Part shown: positions 29,366 through 41,517 of the stretch, in pieces | Layout: each line of letters begins with the position of its first letter | Position numbering within the stretch: the first letter of the stretch is position 1 | Virus record (IMG/VR): IMGVR_UViG_3300044731_000682 | Location: 1-42,555 of that record | Reading direction: 5' to 3' (one strand) | DNA from: a virus | Length of the DNA: 42,555 nucleotides | Translations under genes and position numbers: made by a program | Notes under the pieces: model-generated | What the model was told of the DNA's origin: nothing | Seen by the model: only the letters and a program-made list of their open reading frames with translations | Database searches by the model: none

Positions 29366-29728
29366 TCATCCCTTTCGCTGAGCTTCGGCCATGCGCCGCT
29401 CTGCCTCGCGCCGCTCGCGCTCCGCACGCATATCCAGCGCTTCGACGTGATTCTGCGCGCCGTCGATCGCCAGCATCGCCTCGAGCACGACTGCGATCTG
29501 CTGGTCGACGTCGACCGCGCCGTTCGCCCAGTGACGCCGCAGCACGAGCGCCTGCGCCACGACAGGATCACCGTACGCGCGCCACGGGCACGACGTCGGC
29601 GGCTCACCGAGCATCCGCACGACGCCGTCACGCATACGCGCCACGGACGCTCCGAGGCCGCTCAGGGCCGCGCGACGCACCGGGGCGCGGCGCTCACCGC
29701 CGCAGTCACAGTCCCACGCCTGACGCAC
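29366..29728 (-). CDS. Putative second tail assembly chaperone
   Basis: This 120-residue protein lies between the 198-residue gene and the tape measure. I chose the GTG at 29728 because GGAGG lies 8 nt before it; the frame itself stays open to 29866, overlapping the end of the upstream gene in the -1 frame. The start holds CDCGG (about 7-11). The rest is helical and charged (ALDMRAERERREAERRMAEA). Position fits a lambda gpT-like chaperone, but I see no canonical slippery site. Confidence 0.7.
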   Translation of the reverse strand: MRQAWDCDCGGERRAPVRRAALSGLGASVARMRDGVVRMLGEPPTSCPWRAYGDPVVAQALVLRRHWANGAVDVDQQIAVVLEAMLAIDGAQNHVEALDMRAERERREAERRMAEAQRKG

Positions 29729-29748
29729 CGCTGCGGCCTCCGGACGGG

Positions 29749-30345
29749 CTAGGTCGAGCCCGCGTCGGTGGTCGAGGTGTCGGATGTGCTCGCTGCGGGG
29801 GAGTCCACACGGGACAGGGACTGCACCACCAGCTCGTGCACCGAGGTAGCCGGAAGCGGTGCACAAACCGCGACGAAAGGGCCGATTTTGCTCCGCGCAT
29901 ATGCGACCGCGCCGATTTCATAAATCGCGTGAATGCCCACAATCTGAGCAATGTAATTCACCCCATCACCGTCGAGCATGGGACGTCCGTCCGCGTTCTC
30001 GCGTGGAAAGATCGCCTCCGTCCTCCAACCCAGCGGCGGCGACACCTCCGCGCGCACCAGCGCGTAGCTGATGGCGCGCAGCCACCGCGCCTCCGCAGTC
30101 TGTAACGAGTCGCACTGCGCGCGCTCGTAGACGTGAAGCGGCCGCAGCACGAAGACGCTCGCTCGCTTGCCGGGAACGAAACGCAGCAATCTCGTGTCGC
30201 GCGAGCCGTACACGACGTCACTCATGCGCTCGCCAGTCGCGCCGAAATGCGTGTCGAAGTCACGGCCCATCGCAGCGCGGTCGATTGCTGGGTCGAAACT
30301 GACGTAGCACTCGAGGTGCTTCGTCGGGTCTGTCTCGTGCGTCAT
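29749..30345 (-). CDS. Putative tail assembly chaperone
   Basis: This 198-residue protein begins MTHETDPTKHLECYVSFDPA, with GGAGG upstream. It lies between the major tail protein and the tape measure, where tail assembly chaperones are coded. The main part is alpha/beta (LLRFVPGKRASVFVLRPLHV and ARWLRAISYALVRAEVSPPL) and the end is Ser/Thr/Asp-rich. Sequence alone does not give a known name, so the call rests on position. Confidence 0.65.
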   Translation of the reverse strand: MTHETDPTKHLECYVSFDPAIDRAAMGRDFDTHFGATGERMSDVVYGSRDTRLLRFVPGKRASVFVLRPLHVYERAQCDSLQTAEARWLRAISYALVRAEVSPPLGWRTEAIFPRENADGRPMLDGDGVNYIAQIVGIHAIYEIGAVAYARSKIGPFVAVCAPLPATSVHELVVQSLSRVDSPAASTSDTSTTDAGST

Positions 30346-35580: not shown

Positions 35581-37110
35581 TCAAGCGCCCGAGTTGTTGC
35601 GAGCCGCGTGCTTGCTGAGCATCACGGCGACGTGCTTCTTCGCGGCCTCGCCACGCAGGCCAGCGGCCTTGGCGTCAGCCTCGAAGATCTTGGCGATCGG
35701 GTCTTGCGACGCCGACAGCGCGAGGGTGTTCGTCGGGGCCTTCGGGCCAGTGACGAGCGAGCCGACGGGCGGCTGCGCGGTCGCGGGAAGCGCCGAGTAA
35801 ATATCAAGCGCGATCTGCTCCGACTGCTGCGACGCCGTCACGAACGCGGCGCGCTGCGCCTCGGTGACGCGGCCTTCGCTGAGCAGGCGCGAGAACGACG
35901 CGTCGATGCGCGCGGTGCGCTCGAGGGCGACGCGCTGCTCGCGCTCCTTGCTGAGCTCCGCGACCTGCGCCTGCAAGGCCTTCACGGTCGCCGCGAGCTC
36001 GACGGCGCGGGCCTTGTGCGCGCTGAGCTCGACGCTCGTGCGCGAAAGCTGAGCGTTGGCGTCGGCCGTCATGCCGCTCACCGGGCCAGCGACCAGCATC
36101 GCCGCAAGCTGGTCGAGCTTCTCGGTGACTGCCGCGAGCACGCCAGCCTCGTCCATGCCCGTGGCTTCCACGAGCTTCGACAGCACCATCGTCGCAGCGG
36201 CCTCGCTGGCCTCTTCGACAAGCTCCTCAGTCTCGGGCATCCCCTCCGCGACGGCCTCTTCGACCATGGCGACGTCGTCCTGAAGCGCGATGCCCGAAAG
36301 ACGCCGGATGCCCTGCGCGATGCGCGAAAGCTCCTTGAGCTTCTTCTCGTTCATCGCCGCGTCGACAACTTCCTCCGTGATCGTCGCAGCGGGCATGGCC
36401 TCCTCGGCCATCGCGCCCGCAAGCGCCACAAGCGCGTCAAACGCCTTCTTCATTTTCTCCGGCGTCGCGTCTTTCTTGAGACCGAGCGCCGTCGCGATTG
36501 CCATCAAAACCTTCGTGGGATCCATTGCGAGACTCCTTGTTGACCTCCGCGACGGAGTCCCGACGCGGGAGAGAGTGATGGGCGTCATGCCCGGTAGAAA
36601 CGGTGACGGCGTGAGGCCGAGCTCGTACAGCTCAGCGAGGCCAGCGACCTCGCCAGTCGCGCGGTCAATCGGCGCGAAGTCAACAACGACTGAGCAGAAG
36701 CGCTGCGCGCCCGACGCGATGCGCTTGGCGGCGTCGTCAGTCCACTCGACGTAGCCCCACAGCTCGCAGCCCGTCGCGCCGTCGCGCACCTCGAGCGCCT
36801 GAATCCAGCCAGCCGCGTCGATGGGCACGCCCATGTCGTGGCGCGGGTGGCCCCAGAGCACGGGCACCGGCTGCTCGCCTGCGTCGTAGAGGCGTTTGAT
36901 GTCGCCGAAGACTTCGCGCGTGAATGCAAACGGCCCAGCTGGGTGGCCGTTCCACTCGCTCTCGTAGGCCATCTCAACCCACGAGCACTGAGCGTTGGCG
37001 AGCAGCGGTGCCTTCATGGTGGGCTGCGCGGCGACGTCAGCGAACGCGCCGAGCGTGGCGCGCAGCGCGAGCTTGCGTGAGCCGTCGAAGGCTGTTGCGG
37101 TAGATGCCAT
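35581..37110 (-). CDS. Head maturation protease with scaffold domain (Mu gpI-like)
   Basis: This 509-residue protein starts at ATG 37110, sharing a base with the upstream TAA. The first 200 residues match phage head protease genes of the Mu gpI type (WNGHPAGPFAFTREVFGDIK, VPVLWGHPRHDMGVPIDAAG and LYELGLTPSPFLPGMTPI). The remainder is a helical, acidic then charged scaffold-like region (KLKELSRIAQGIRRLSGIAL and VELSAHKARAVELAATVKAL). In Mu a nested gene makes the scaffold from the 3' half of the protease gene; here the ATG of MDPTKVLMAIATALG is a candidate internal start (36523). The protein would cut itself, the scaffold and possibly the capsid. Confidence 0.82.
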   Translation of the reverse strand: MASTATAFDGSRKLALRATLGAFADVAAQPTMKAPLLANAQCSWVEMAYESEWNGHPAGPFAFTREVFGDIKRLYDAGEQPVPVLWGHPRHDMGVPIDAAGWIQALEVRDGATGCELWGYVEWTDDAAKRIASGAQRFCSVVVDFAPIDRATGEVAGLAELYELGLTPSPFLPGMTPITLSRVGTPSRRSTRSLAMDPTKVLMAIATALGLKKDATPEKMKKAFDALVALAGAMAEEAMPAATITEEVVDAAMNEKKLKELSRIAQGIRRLSGIALQDDVAMVEEAVAEGMPETEELVEEASEAAATMVLSKLVEATGMDEAGVLAAVTEKLDQLAAMLVAGPVSGMTADANAQLSRTSVELSAHKARAVELAATVKALQAQVAELSKEREQRVALERTARIDASFSRLLSEGRVTEAQRAAFVTASQQSEQIALDIYSALPATAQPPVGSLVTGPKAPTNTLALSASQDPIAKIFEADAKAAGLRGEAAKKHVAVMLSKHAARNNSGA

Positions 37111-38096
37111 TATGACCTCACAAAAGACGATGCGCCGAAGCCGGGCGTCAGCATGAATCCCGATGGGATGCTGGTGATGACCTGCAAGCCCTCGTCGCGG
37201 AGTTCTTCTTCCGACAGCGTCGTGATGACGCAGCGACACTGGAATCCGGCAGGCGGCGAGATGTTCGCGAACGACGAATCATCAGCGCGCCAAACCTTGC
37301 GATTCATCGGCGCGTGCTCAGCGCGCACGCGATTGTCCTGCGCCGTGAGCCACTGCCTATACGGGCGAGCCTCGAGGACGTCGGGGTCATTCATTTGCGT
37401 CCAGCGTCCCGCGCCATACGCGCTTGCGACGTTGGTCCTGTAGACGTTCTCAAGGTAACTGGGATCCTGCGGCGCAATGCCGAGCGTGATGGTCTGGTCT
37501 TCCATCGCGCGTCGGAAGTCGCGCAGCGTGTTGCCTTCTTCGAGCGTGCGCTGTAGCTCCTCGACGGCGCGTCGCGAGATGACGTCGAGCTGCTCGTCGG
37601 TGGCCAGCGCAGCGCGACGGCGATACGCGCGCAGCACAAACTCGAGGATGTCGGGGTCACCGCCGCGCTCGCGCCAGAAGGCCACCGCTTCCGAAAATGG
37701 CATCTTCAAGAACGCGGGCCGCAAGTCGACCGCGAGCTGCCGTTGCGCGCCCTGCGGGTCGAGCTCCACGAGGCGCACGAACATCTGGCCTGCGAGGTCG
37801 GATTTCACCGACGCTTCGTAAATCAGCCGCTCAAGTTCCGGCGTGCCCTTGAACGCGGCGACGGCCTCTTCGATAGCGCTCGCGCCACCGGCCGACGCGA
37901 CGGCGATGGCCTCGCGTACCGGCGTGAACGCGACGACGCCCTCAAGCGTAGTCTCCGCGGCGACGACGTACGGTCGCCCGATTACTGCCTGTACGCGCGC
38001 CTTGTCCGCGGGGTCGCTGAGAGCGAGGACGTCCGCGAAGTCGCCGACGTCATCGACAGCGCTGGCATCCCATGCGCCGAGCCCGGCGACGTCGAG
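37110..38096 (-). CDS. Minor head protein (MuF/SPP1 gp7-like), read by -1 frameshift
   Basis: The 3' part is a clear MuF domain: PFSEAVAFWRERGG, then ENVYRTNVASAYGAGRW, RPYRQWLTAQDNRVRAEHAP and ISPPAGFQCRCVITTLS. In the same frame, the stretch upstream of the only acceptable start (GTG 37808) stays open and looks coding (ARVQAVIGRPYVVAAETTLE, EGVVAFTPVREAIAVASAGG and ELERLIYEASV), with no ATG, GTG or TTG back to a stop at 38130. No ribosome site precedes GTG 37808. A -1 slip at 38096-38102 in the portal gene enters this frame exactly. The portal-MuF fusion would be about 795 residues (467 portal plus 328). A sequence error that dropped one base is the alternative. Confidence 0.8.
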   Translation of the reverse strand, partial: LDVAGLGAWDASAVDDVGDFADVLALSDPADKARVQAVIGRPYVVAAETTLEGVVAFTPVREAIAVASAGGASAIEEAVAAFKGTPELERLIYEASVKSDLAGQMFVRLVELDPQGAQRQLAVDLRPAFLKMPFSEAVAFWRERGGDPDILEFVLRAYRRRAALATDEQLDVISRRAVEELQRTLEEGNTLRDFRRAMEDQTITLGIAPQDPSYLENVYRTNVASAYGAGRWTQMNDPDVLEARPYRQWLTAQDNRVRAEHAPMNRKVWRADDSSFANISPPAGFQCRCVITTLSEEELRDEGLQVITSIPSGFMLTPGFGASSFVRS

Positions 38097-39496
38097 AAAG
38101 GGCGCTCCGCGGACGCACCTCCGAGCGTTTCAGCGGGCGTCACGGCCTCGATCGATGGCGAGCCCGTCTCGACTGGCGGCGCGGCCTCAAAGGGCAGCGG
38201 AGAGCCCGGAGGCGCAGGCGGTAGCTGAATCTTCGCGATGTTCTCGCCGCCGTCCTCGACGCTCCACGCGGGCAAGCCCAGCGAGGCGCGGATTTCGTTG
38301 ACGCGCACGCTGCCGGTGTCGATGGCGTCGCGCGTGATCGGCAGGCTGTCGTCAAAGAGCGTCTCGATGACCGGCAGCGGGATATCGGCGCGGCGCAGAT
38401 TGTAGTACGCGAGCCACCTGACCACGTCGCGCGTGATTGAGCCCCACATCAGCGTCGAGTCGAGCTTGCTGTTCTCGAGCCGCACGCCGTCGCGCGTCTC
38501 CGTGCTCGAGCGCGAGCCGTTTGCGCCGCTGAGATAGAGATCGGGACTGACGCCGAGCGCGAGGAACAGCTCCTCGTTCAGCGACGCACGAAGCTCTTTC
38601 CAGACGCCCGTCGAGCCTGCGCCTGCAGGGTCGATGATCTTGATATCCGACGTGCCGCTCGTGACACCGACGCTGTCGGCCGTGAGCTGCTGTAGGTCGT
38701 CGAGGATGCGCTGCCGCTGCGCGCTATCCGACGACGCGGCCATCTGCGCGAGCACAAGTGGATTGCCGAATCGCTCAGCGCCAACCAACCAGAACGTCCA
38801 GACGTTGCGCTTGAACATCCAGTAAAAGACCGCCGCGAGGAAGTCGCCTTGGTCCATCGGCCGGCCGGGGTCCGTCCACGGCACGTGCACGAGGAACTTC
38901 GCCGGATAGTTGATCGTGTTGTACCACTGGTAGTCAAAGTCCCTGACCTCGAGTGACCAGTCCTGCGCGTACCGCAAGTTGCGCGTTTGCACTGGCACCG
39001 GCTGCGGCATCCACGCGCCGCCGCGACGCGACCACACCAGCTCGTGACACGAGATGCCCATGCCGATGGCGTCGAGGACGCGCATCAGGAACGTCTCGCG
39101 CGCCTCAAGCGACACGAGCCATTCCTTGGTCAACTGCACCAGCTCTTCAGCAGCGCCGCGCATCTCGGGCGCGACGTCGTCGGCCATGCGCACGGCGAAG
39201 CCGCGGCCAGCCACCGACGAGCGGCGCGTCGAGTACGCGCGACGCACGACGGGGTCACGGCGCATCTGCGTCGCCATGTCCGCCCAATACTCGTAATTGC
39301 CGAAGTCGAGCTCGCGCAGCGCCGTCGAGATGCGCCCCGGCGACACCGGCTGTAGCGCGCGCCCGCTGATGGCCGACAGCGACTGCGGCCTGATGACGCG
39401 ACCCATCTCGGGGATGCGCGTGACCGGCCCCATCGGCTCAGGCGCAGCGGCAGCGACCGGCGCGGTCTTCTGCGTGCGTGGCTTGCGAGACGTCAT
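37982..39496 (-). CDS. Portal protein (DUF935, Mu gp29-like)
   Basis: This 504-residue protein is the unshifted portal product. The portal forms the ring through which DNA enters and leaves the head. DUF935 features are visible: MRRDPVVRRAYSTRRSSVAG, then DAIGMGISCHELVWSRRGGA, VPVQTRNLRYAQDWSLEVRD, FLAAVFYWMFKRNVWTFWLV and RVNEIRASLGLPAWS. The main fold ends by about residue 425. The last 37 residues after the slippery site are Ser/Thr/Arg-rich and look non-native, and they overlap the MuF frame. Most of the gene is normal; only the end is odd. Confidence 0.9.
   Translation of the reverse strand: MTSRKPRTQKTAPVAAAAPEPMGPVTRIPEMGRVIRPQSLSAISGRALQPVSPGRISTALRELDFGNYEYWADMATQMRRDPVVRRAYSTRRSSVAGRGFAVRMADDVAPEMRGAAEELVQLTKEWLVSLEARETFLMRVLDAIGMGISCHELVWSRRGGAWMPQPVPVQTRNLRYAQDWSLEVRDFDYQWYNTINYPAKFLVHVPWTDPGRPMDQGDFLAAVFYWMFKRNVWTFWLVGAERFGNPLVLAQMAASSDSAQRQRILDDLQQLTADSVGVTSGTSDIKIIDPAGAGSTGVWKELRASLNEELFLALGVSPDLYLSGANGSRSSTETRDGVRLENSKLDSTLMWGSITRDVVRWLAYYNLRRADIPLPVIETLFDDSLPITRDAIDTGSVRVNEIRASLGLPAWSVEDGGENIAKIQLPPAPPGSPLPFEAAPPVETGSPSIEAVTPAETLGGASAERPFSTSPGSAHGMPALSMTSATSRTSSLSATPRTRRAYRQ
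38075..38102 (-). other. Candidate programmed -1 frameshift signal
   Basis: On the minus strand CCCTTTC (38102-38096) is in portal phase C CCT TTC, the canonical X XXY YYZ heptamer. After a 7-nt spacer comes a hairpin with CGCCG (38088-38084), loop GGCT and CGGCG (38079-38075). The spacing of 7 nt fits known -1 signals. The same tRNA reads TTC and TTT, and CCT to CCC changes only the wobble base. The -1 frame leads into the minor head protein. Confidence 0.75.
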
Positions 39497-39499
39497 CGG

Positions 39500-40987
39500 C
39501 TAACCCCAGTAGTTCTTGCGCCCGACGCGGGGCGCGTAGTCTGTCGTCAGGTCAGCAGACACGCGCCTGCCAGTGCTCGCGACGCCGCTGCCGACGTGCA
39601 TCTCCGCGAGCAGGTCGAACGCAGCCGCGAGCGCGTCGACTTGGTCGTCGTGCGCGTCGCCCTGCCCCGTAAATCGCGCGACCTCGTCGCAGAGGTCAGG
39701 CAGCCACGCAGCGCCCTCGCGCACGAGCACGCGGCCCGCGTTCCACGCTGCTGCCAGCGGTGTGGCGCGCGCGTACTTGTCTCCGATGGCCGTCTTGACC
39801 TCGACTTGCAGCCCGACTCCTCGAGGTGGCGGCAGCGCGAGGAAGTCGAGCGCGCCGCGGTCAGCGCCGCCTGCGTAGATGCGCGACGCGGTGTGCGGCC
39901 AGCGTGCCCTAAGCATCGCGAGCTGCTGCGCGAAATCGCTCGCACGCATCTGCGCGCGCAGCACGTCGAGGACGTAGTACCGCGCGTCCTGCCCTTGTCC
40001 CGCCTTGCCCATCACCACTGCCACCGACCAGTCCGCGCTCGTCTTCGCTGAGTATGCGAGGTCGAGCCCGATGCCGCGCGTGAGCTCGCCCGGTGGCGTC
40101 GAGTACGTCGTCGGCGTTGCTGAGAAAACTGCGCCACCGCGCGCTCGAGGCTGGCCCATGTAAAGCGCTGCCCACTCGTACGGCCCGACCTCGCGCTCGC
40201 GCTGGCGCAGGAACTCACGCGGGCGCTGCGACGGCCACAGCGACTCGTCCTCGGCGGTGATCGCCGGGAGATTCACGACCTCCCAGCCGTCAGCTTCGAG
40301 CCTGCCGATGAGGTCGTCGGGATGCCAGCGTGTATGCACAACGATGCACGAGCCCGTGGGCGCGATGCGCGTGAGCGCCGTCGACCGCAGCCAGTCGGAA
40401 ATCTTCTCGCGCTCGCGCCGCGACTCAGCCTCTTCGCGATTTTTGTGCGGGTCATCGACCACGACGACCTGCGCGGCATAGCCGGTGAGCGGCCCGCCGA
40501 TGCCCGTCGCGAGCAGACCACCACCCTCGACCAGACGCCAGCGTCCAGCCGCGCTCGTGTCGTCGCGCAGTGACAGCCCGGCCTCGCGTGCGAGGTCGCG
40601 AATCTCTTTGCTGCGGTCGTGCGCGAAGTCGGCCGAATACGACGCGTACACCACTGGCCACGTCGGATGACGCGACAGCATCTGCACGATTCCATGCTGG
40701 ATCAGCGTGGTCTTGCCGAACTGCGCCGGGACGCTCACGCACGCACGCACCGTCTCGCCACGCATCGCGCGCTCGAAGAGAGCGGCCACCGGCGCGAGGT
40801 GCTGCGGCGGCTCCCATCGCGGAGACAGCGCGTGCACGTAATCCACGAGGCTCAGCCTGCGCCGCGGGTCTTCGCGTGACGGCGACTTCTCCGCGCGCAG
40901 TCGCTCAAGCTCCTGCGCCGCTGCCGCTCGCAGCCGCGTCGACACCTGCGCCTGCCGCCGACCGCGTATCAGCTCGCGCACCGTCAT
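39500..40987 (-). CDS. terL: Terminase large subunit
   Basis: This 495-residue terminase ATPase/nuclease cuts and pumps DNA into the head. The Walker A-like site is VPAQFGKT (86-93), Walker B is VVVVDDP (174-180), and the segment HTRWHPDDLIG (218-228) is typical of this group. The nuclease domain has GLDLAYSAKTSADWS (from 307) and DAHDDQVDA (444-452). I chose ATG 40987, which shares a base with the small-subunit stop; a TTG directly before it is unlikely. Packaging type (cos or pac) cannot be told. Confidence 0.94.
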   Translation of the reverse strand: MTVRELIRGRRQAQVSTRLRAAAAQELERLRAEKSPSREDPRRRLSLVDYVHALSPRWEPPQHLAPVAALFERAMRGETVRACVSVPAQFGKTTLIQHGIVQMLSRHPTWPVVYASYSADFAHDRSKEIRDLAREAGLSLRDDTSAAGRWRLVEGGGLLATGIGGPLTGYAAQVVVVDDPHKNREEAESRREREKISDWLRSTALTRIAPTGSCIVVHTRWHPDDLIGRLEADGWEVVNLPAITAEDESLWPSQRPREFLRQREREVGPYEWAALYMGQPRARGGAVFSATPTTYSTPPGELTRGIGLDLAYSAKTSADWSVAVVMGKAGQGQDARYYVLDVLRAQMRASDFAQQLAMLRARWPHTASRIYAGGADRGALDFLALPPPRGVGLQVEVKTAIGDKYARATPLAAAWNAGRVLVREGAAWLPDLCDEVARFTGQGDAHDDQVDALAAAFDLLAEMHVGSGVASTGRRVSADLTTDYAPRVGRKNYWG

Positions 40988-41517
40988 CAATGCGCCTCGT
41001 CTGCGGCCTCGTCGTCGTCGGCCCTGTCATCGCCAGCAAGCCGCGCGAGCAGCACCGCGTACCACTCAGACGGCAAGCACTCGCGAGCAGCCGTCAGCAC
41101 GTCGTTTGCCGCGGCCTCCTGCGCGCGGATGACGAGCTGCTGCGAGGGCGCGTACGTCTCAGGCATCGTGCGCTCAAGCAGCCATGCGCGAGCTTTCCAG
41201 TCGCTTTCCTCGCCAGCCTGCGTGGGCTTGGCTTGCAGCCGTATCTGGTCGAGCATGGACTGCTCGAATGCCGAGCGCGCGCGTGCGACAGCGCCGAAGA
41301 AATCCGCGTATGGCTCGCGTCCTGCGTCAGCCTGCGAGCGCCACTTCTCGATGCATCGCGGCGACACGCCCTCGGCTTCGAGCGCTGCCGGTAGACGCAG
41401 CCCGTTCTCGACTCGCGCGCATACCCGCTGCGTGAACGCTGGCGTGATGTGCGACGGCCTGCCGAGCGGCGCGCTCAGCTGCCGAGGCTCCTCGCCCTTC
41501 CGCTGCCGCTTGCTCAT
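40987..41517 (-). CDS. terS: Terminase small subunit
   Basis: This 176-residue protein begins MSKRQRKGEEPRQLSAPLGR. Its N-terminal half is a helix-turn-helix of the kind found in small terminases (GRPSHITPAFTQRVCARVEN, LRLPAALEAEGVSPRCIEKW), followed by YADFFGAVARARSAFEQSM. It would recognise the packaging site and load TerL. The stop shares a base with the TerL start. An in-frame extension to 41664 would overlap the upstream gene; the ATG at 41517 is more likely. Confidence 0.8.
   Translation of the reverse strand: MSKRQRKGEEPRQLSAPLGRPSHITPAFTQRVCARVENGLRLPAALEAEGVSPRCIEKWRSQADAGREPYADFFGAVARARSAFEQSMLDQIRLQAKPTQAGEESDWKARAWLLERTMPETYAPSQQLVIRAQEAAANDVLTAARECLPSEWYAVLLARLAGDDRADDDEAADEAH

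Follow-up and report, generated by a model that had tools for sequence, protein, structure and literature searches.

Several tailed phages use ribosomal frameshifting to produce a minority of a structural protein with a C-terminal extension. Such products are gp17.1* of SPP1, made by a +1 shift, the longer gene 10 product of T7 and, reportedly (by the title of a reference), a form of the major head protein of Lactobacillus phage A2; they belong to the tail tube or the capsid shell, which contain many copies. The gp17.1 : gp17.1* ratio is given as 3:1 (PMC6316719), and the T7 frameshift product as ~ 10% of the capsid proteins (PMC3185693). In lambda and many tailed phages, a -1 frameshift is described for the tail assembly chaperone pair G/GT (Xu, Hendrix and Duda 2004, as cited in PMC4493119 and PMC3556154). 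The portal, in contrast, has been described as a dodecamer, a ring assembled from a single protein (PMC3185693). In Mu, the portal protein gp29 and the minor head protein gp30 are encoded by separate genes, each with its own annotated start; the last 20 nt of the portal gene are shared with gp30, which lies in the +1 frame. Here, we analyzed the IMG/VR virus record IMGVR_UViG_3300044731_000682 (42,555 bases, 67% G+C; the whole stretch is called the window below), which carries homologous domains in the same order, with the Mu F-like (MuF) domain in the -1 frame of the portal gene. Comparison with related loci makes it almost certain that the Mu-type portal gene of these uncultured phages contains a conserved programmed -1 ribosomal frameshift site.

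The head module of the window is located on the minus strand and is of Mu type, comprising the terminase large subunit, portal (Portal_Mu), Phage_Mu_F, a Mu I-like protease and a gpT-like head protein. Both assignments central to this work exceeded the profile cut-offs, with 163.8 bits (cut-off 23.9) for the Mu-type portal and 60.6 bits (cut-off 29.6) for the Phage Mu F-like minor head protein. A sequence-only reading of the window had proposed that ribosomes slip at C CCT TTC within the portal gene, and its description of the site agrees with our analysis (Table 1). The heptamer lies in the correct phase (X XXY YYZ), and the -1 frame is open around it and contains the MuF domain. The first ATG, GTG or TTG of that frame, the GTG at 37808, is 294 nt past the first base of the heptamer and has no Shine-Dalgarno (SD) sequence. 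The calculated sizes of 504 residues for the portal, 795 for the fusion and 37 for the unshifted tail also hold. The minus strand of the window has two copies of CCCTTTC, which are both in phase and lie in two of the 21 genes checked.

The best explanation overall, to which we assign a probability of roughly 0.92 from sequence comparison, is programmed -1 frameshifting that yields the portal protein and a portal-MuF fusion, so that a single gene of these phages very probably yields portal proteins of two lengths. Ribosomes that continue in frame at GGAGG...C CCT TTC would stop 13-50 codons later and release the portal protein (504 aa in the window). Those that slip back by one base would re-pair from CCU to CCC at Pro and from UUC to UUU at Phe, and would extend the chain to ~ 795 aa in the order portal, Pro/Ala-rich linker, MuF minor head domain. 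Under standard decoding, both the P-site and the A-site tRNAs can re-pair after this slip. Both products would be made, and pairing of the anti-SD with GGAGG would promote the slip.

Two profile scans of the IMG/VR viral contigs returned 51 portal loci and 52 MuF loci, and 77 locus entries had both matches (some contigs appear twice). Seven loci with one match only (L041, L047, L048, L051, L068, L071 and L074) were left unjudged, as was L001, the window itself. In 76 of the 77 entries, the junction carried an in-phase CCCTTTC followed by MuF in the -1 frame, which supports portal-MuF frameshifting as the sequence-only reading interpreted it. The exception, L085, is remote (~ 26-28% identical) and is an ordinary two-gene locus, with MuF at +1 and its own ATG; within the clade, no separate MuF start replaced the heptamer. 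Together with the window, the entries represent 34 distinct junctions, and the seven bases are identical in all of them, even though the clade extends to 39-46% portal and 57-61% MuF identity (L081-L083). Later profile searches of viral contigs added no close relatives and only one remote locus (L121), and a search of GTDB genomes for a host with the MuF profile returned no relative. The alignment of junctions included 33 of the 34 (L011 is cut and was omitted); the 34 distinct complete fused genes used below are a different set. The C-terminal linker of the portal, upstream of the slip, occurred in a short and a long form (~ 100 residues more), which separated L037-L040 and L042-L044 from the others.

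The alignment of fused genes (963 codon columns) contained four invariant runs of at least 7 nt, three of which, the heptamer included, fell within a 39-nt stretch starting at the slip. Because joining the sequences counts the seventh heptamer base twice, TTTCCC-type entries at the site are an artefact of that join. Synonymous diversity, calculated in 15-codon bins as observed over expected relative to the gene average, was 0.28, 0.34 and 0.53 in the three bins located at the site, each with 5-7 usable codons, and 0.56-1.58 in the remaining bins with at least five usable codons. The silent-site constraint sought by the sequence-only reading was thus found together with the heptamer. Moreover, among 208 degenerate columns with an invariant amino acid, 19 were codon-invariant, six of them between the slip Pro and 11 codons after it. 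We estimated dN/dS by Nei-Gojobori counting, leaving out three remote genes. The ratio was 0.19 in the portal body, 0.61 for the -1 frame inside the overlap and 0.25 just beyond it, and 1.09 for the zero-frame tail, which has 13-50 residues in complete tails of relatives. These values place the -1 frame under purifying selection, indicating that ribosomes read the MuF frame as protein-coding from the slip onward, and they leave the unshifted tail free, with no sign of constraint as a protein. The last 12 portal codons had a dS of 0.13 (portal body, 0.36), consistent with a signal at the nucleotide level immediately before the slip. The Val codon GTA, which makes up 4% of Val codons overall, was present in 25 of 34 genes both at column +36 and at column +39 downstream of the slip. 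At one of these columns GTA creates the zero-frame stop, which suggested selection for that stop, but the neighbouring column without this effect has an equal count, and we draw no conclusion from it.

In 20 of 34 junctions, the first 27 nt of the open -1 frame are all that precedes the heptamer, and the earliest start position shared by the aligned MuF proteins is Met 107 (13/13), well inside the conserved -1 product. Downstream of the slip, the -1 frame is, as judged from these patterns, a selected coding frame without a usable start of its own. Comparison of relatives is what carries each element of the argument, namely the heptamer, its phase and conservation, translation in the -1 frame, the lack of a shared start and the unconstrained tail.

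By alignment, two signals flanking the heptamer are conserved, a GGAGG-type element before it and an invariant block after it. At a fixed spacing of 15 nt upstream, we observed GGAGG in 25, GGGGG in eight and GGGAG in one of the 34 distinct junctions; SD-like sites also precede many genes of this phage. An ACGC...GCGT hairpin around GGAGG was paired in all 32 distinct rows, with both sides changed at two of the four pairs. Six changes on the tree are required to account for its states; these could be independent events, favouring the hairpin, or swapped blocks, and the hairpin is tentative. The junction alleles are discordant with the tree, which may mean that blocks are swapped between these phages. 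The downstream block CTCGGCGnnTGGGATGCC was invariant in 34/34 junctions apart from nn and may encode a protein motif, act as an RNA element or do both. It keeps the Asp codon GAT, though 80% of Asp codons are GAC. When 101 nt of the window around the site were folded, the best structure was more stable than those of shuffled sequences (z = -2.79; 3/200 as stable), and RNAalifold on 33 junctions gave a weak result with a covariation term of -0.63.

Some observations weigh against this reading. The downstream hairpin that the sequence-only reading had proposed as a stimulator exists in the window, but all five pairs are present in just 9 of the 34 distinct junctions, so it fails in most relatives, is less well conserved than the SD-like element and was rejected as a conserved stimulator. 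Conservation of the best window fold was likewise rejected (kept in 80% of cells, with covariation at shuffle level, 461/500 as high). A helix scan of the junction alignment revealed no convincing covarying helix downstream, pseudoknots not being searched as such. The upstream hairpin rests on few events, with alleles perhaps swapped between lineages. The Pro and Phe residues are conserved in both frames, meaning that part of the heptamer conservation could be at the protein level; the third positions of these codons are fixed too. In the synonymous test, three bins elsewhere, with 1-3 usable codons, were equally low (0.14-0.33). In three of the 34 junctions (L033, L035 and L081), the open -1 frame contains a GTG before the heptamer, and in five (L030, L031, L032, L038 and L050) a start codon occurs 63-72 nt past the first base of the heptamer. 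The latter starts are not common to the clade, and in the remaining junctions the first start comes later or is cut off. Structure predictions of the MuF and portal halves had mean pLDDT of 46 and 36, respectively, and were not used.

It is very improbable that MuF is made separately, by internal initiation at Met 107 or a non-canonical start, with the fusion being immaterial. Met 107 is indeed invariant, its ATG lies ~ 318-336 nt past the heptamer in most cases, and other Mu-type phages have separate MuF genes, one of them short. However, the residues before Met 107 are conserved as protein (dN/dS of 0.25 beyond the overlap) and so are translated, no earlier start is shared, the candidates examined have no clear SD, and the invariant heptamer would be left unexplained. 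RNA polymerase slippage would give the same two proteins and is inseparable from ribosomal slippage by sequence alone. Transcriptional slippage usually needs longer runs; here they consist of just three C and three T, and what is kept is a phase-specific tandem heptamer. The tail-chaperone site described below even varies (CCCTTTT, TTTTTTC) yet retains X XXY YYZ, and we regard a transcriptional origin as extremely improbable. The single portal-MuF open reading frames (ORFs) of six loci in other genomes lend some plausibility to a plain fused gene from which one base is missing. When the IMG/VR viral contigs were scanned for the DNA pattern, however, the arrangement was located in 51 contigs whose names carry 42 different dataset numbers, so it is not an assembly error. 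It recurs in all 34 distinct junctions, and no clade entry with both matches has the in-frame version or the extra base that would produce it. Sequencing error and chance are, in practice, excluded.

The fate of the fused chain is less clear than its synthesis by programmed frameshifting. Fused subunits would form a minority in the portal ring and bring a small number of MuF domains to the interior of the head at the portal vertex, with the slip rate determining how many. A rate of 10-30% corresponds to one to four MuF domains per 12-mer, which is arithmetic and not a measurement. We consider the odds about even that the ring is mixed, combining plain and MuF-bearing subunits in a ratio and copy number set by the slip rate rather than by a separate protein that binds to it. 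The SPP1 protein gp7 attaches to the portal and is incorporated into the procapsid at low copy number; ~ 25% of virions lacking gp7 are infectious (PMC6316719). The maturation protease may cut the linker later. Its gene directly follows MuF, and the linker is Pro/Ala-rich and variable in length, as would be expected if the frameshift mainly coupled the amounts of two products, the linker were soon cut and the rings of virions were unmixed. We hold this outcome to be possible but rather unlikely; it has the frameshift in common with the mixed ring and differs just in the later fate of the chain.

The window offers an internal comparison. The second CCCTTTC is located in a gene just upstream of a tape-measure-like protein, and the -1 frame behind it runs to 29366. 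This gene had no PHROG match, and its assignment as a tail chaperone follows from its position and frameshift anatomy. We found it in 14 of the 20 related records searched, the other six being records of 10.9 to 29.4 kb. An in-phase slippery heptamer occupied the same place in 14/14, as CCCTTTC in 12, CCCTTTT in one (L203) and TTTTTTC in one (L212), so that here the X XXY YYZ pattern is kept rather than the exact bases. An ORF with a TTG start at 29366-29866 is probably not a separate gene. With the same heptamer at its tail-chaperone site, the lineage uses this sequence where the mechanism is well established. The portal site resembles that of lambda G/GT in having an X XXY YYZ slip in a late gene, with a short and an extended form. 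It differs in lying in the portal gene, within the head module, and in its extension, which is a MuF domain and not a tail chaperone; the site at 29881 does have the lambda location just upstream of the tape measure.

Outside the clade, Mu encodes portal and MuF separately, as the sequence-only reading stated, and in each of six named Mu-like phages that we examined MuF is annotated as a gene of its own (that of Mushu is short, 246 aa by coordinates). We also surveyed Mu-type portals in 76 rows, 72 after four duplicate loci were dropped. They consist of L085, L121, 20 + 30 search regions and 20 hand-picked loci, several of them chosen for long open frames, so the counts are not frequencies. 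Both genes were present at 47 loci, 41 with a separate MuF and six with one ORF (five whole and L286 partial), and at none of the 47 was MuF located behind a slippery heptamer without a nearby start. The 25 further rows had no MuF match in the stretch examined; one of them is half of a split portal in L232, and the second half of that portal is counted among the 41. The single ORFs (L267, L268, L270, L271, L272 and L286) measure 670-904 aa from stop to stop and come from prophage loci drawn from the phylum of a Paracoccus metagenome-assembled genome; the region of the partial match L286 has an inner stop. Like the fusion described here, they join both domains in one chain, but in frame, with no slip needed, and they make a fused chain plausible. 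A portal-MuF chain thus exists elsewhere, and this clade appears to make it by frameshifting.

The survey also yielded some side observations. L223, among the 41, has MuF at -1 and an in-phase GGGCCCG in the overlap, but it also has a GTG start at the portal stop. In Chromohalobacter phage YPCBV-1 (L197, ~ 1801-1870), the region homologous to MuF extends 69 nt upstream of the annotated start, into the portal gene, and that start was probably called too late. The 23 loci between L238 and L266 contain portal-like ORFs, mostly of ~ 390-450 aa (639 in L238), without a MuF match. The three inspected (L239, L247 and L264) had no head genes beside the portal-like ORF, and such ORFs are perhaps remnants or domesticated genes.

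The features of the window are collected in Table 1. The ATG of the protease gene, at 37110, overlaps the MuF stop.

Table 1. Features of the portal-MuF locus and the tail-chaperone locus in the window.
Feature	Position	Strand	Basis or remark
Terminase large subunit, gene preceding portal	39500..40990	-	PF17289, PF03237, phrog_38
Portal gene, zero frame; 504 aa (467 aa up to the slip and 37-aa unshifted tail)	37982..39496	-	PF06074 Portal_Mu, E 8.5e-48; phrog_113 portal
Tentative 4-bp hairpin ACGC...GCGT, GGAGG in loop	38113..38128	-	paired in 32/32 distinct rows
SD-like GGAGGTG, 13 nt upstream of heptamer, candidate 5' stimulator	38116..38122	-	same spacing in 34/34 distinct junctions
Slippery heptamer C CCT TTC	38096..38102	-	in phase in 34/34 distinct junctions
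-1 reading frame; 328 further residues after the slip, MuF domain included	37110..38129	-	PF04233, E 3e-16; dN/dS
Unshifted portal tail, 37 aa	37982..38095	-	zero-frame dN/dS 1.09
Hairpin CGCCG-GGCT-CGGCG proposed earlier, not conserved	38075..38088	-	5/5 pairs in 9/34 junctions
Downstream block CTCGGCGnnTGGGATGCC, candidate 3' element or protein motif LG(A/G)WDA	38064..38081	-	invariant apart from nn
Mu I-like head maturation protease, next gene after MuF	35581..37110	-	PF10123, E 4.4e-26
Gene in tail-chaperone (lambda G-like) position, zero frame	29749..30345	-	position and frameshift anatomy
Second C CCT TTC (29881-29875) and -1 extension behind it, tail-chaperone frameshift	29366..29881	-	heptamer pattern kept in relatives

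Portal-MuF frameshifting was not found in full-text searches of open-licence papers, subscription papers not being covered; we thus found no report of conserved -1 frameshifting in a portal gene, and the type of mechanism is itself known. The work on PRFect lists MuF-like and VIP2 genes among its false positives (PMC10885494), a frameshift prediction that touches MuF; the partner there is toxin-like, no portal is named in the passage concerned, and the pair differs from the one described here.

Gene callers will split or truncate these portal-MuF genes. If the proposed mechanism is true, a frameshift that joins MuF to some portal subunits would explain the placement of MuF in the head for one lineage, and translation would fix how many internal minor-head domains are present at the packaging vertex. 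It would also provide a testable system relating the slip rate to MuF copies, assembly and infection.

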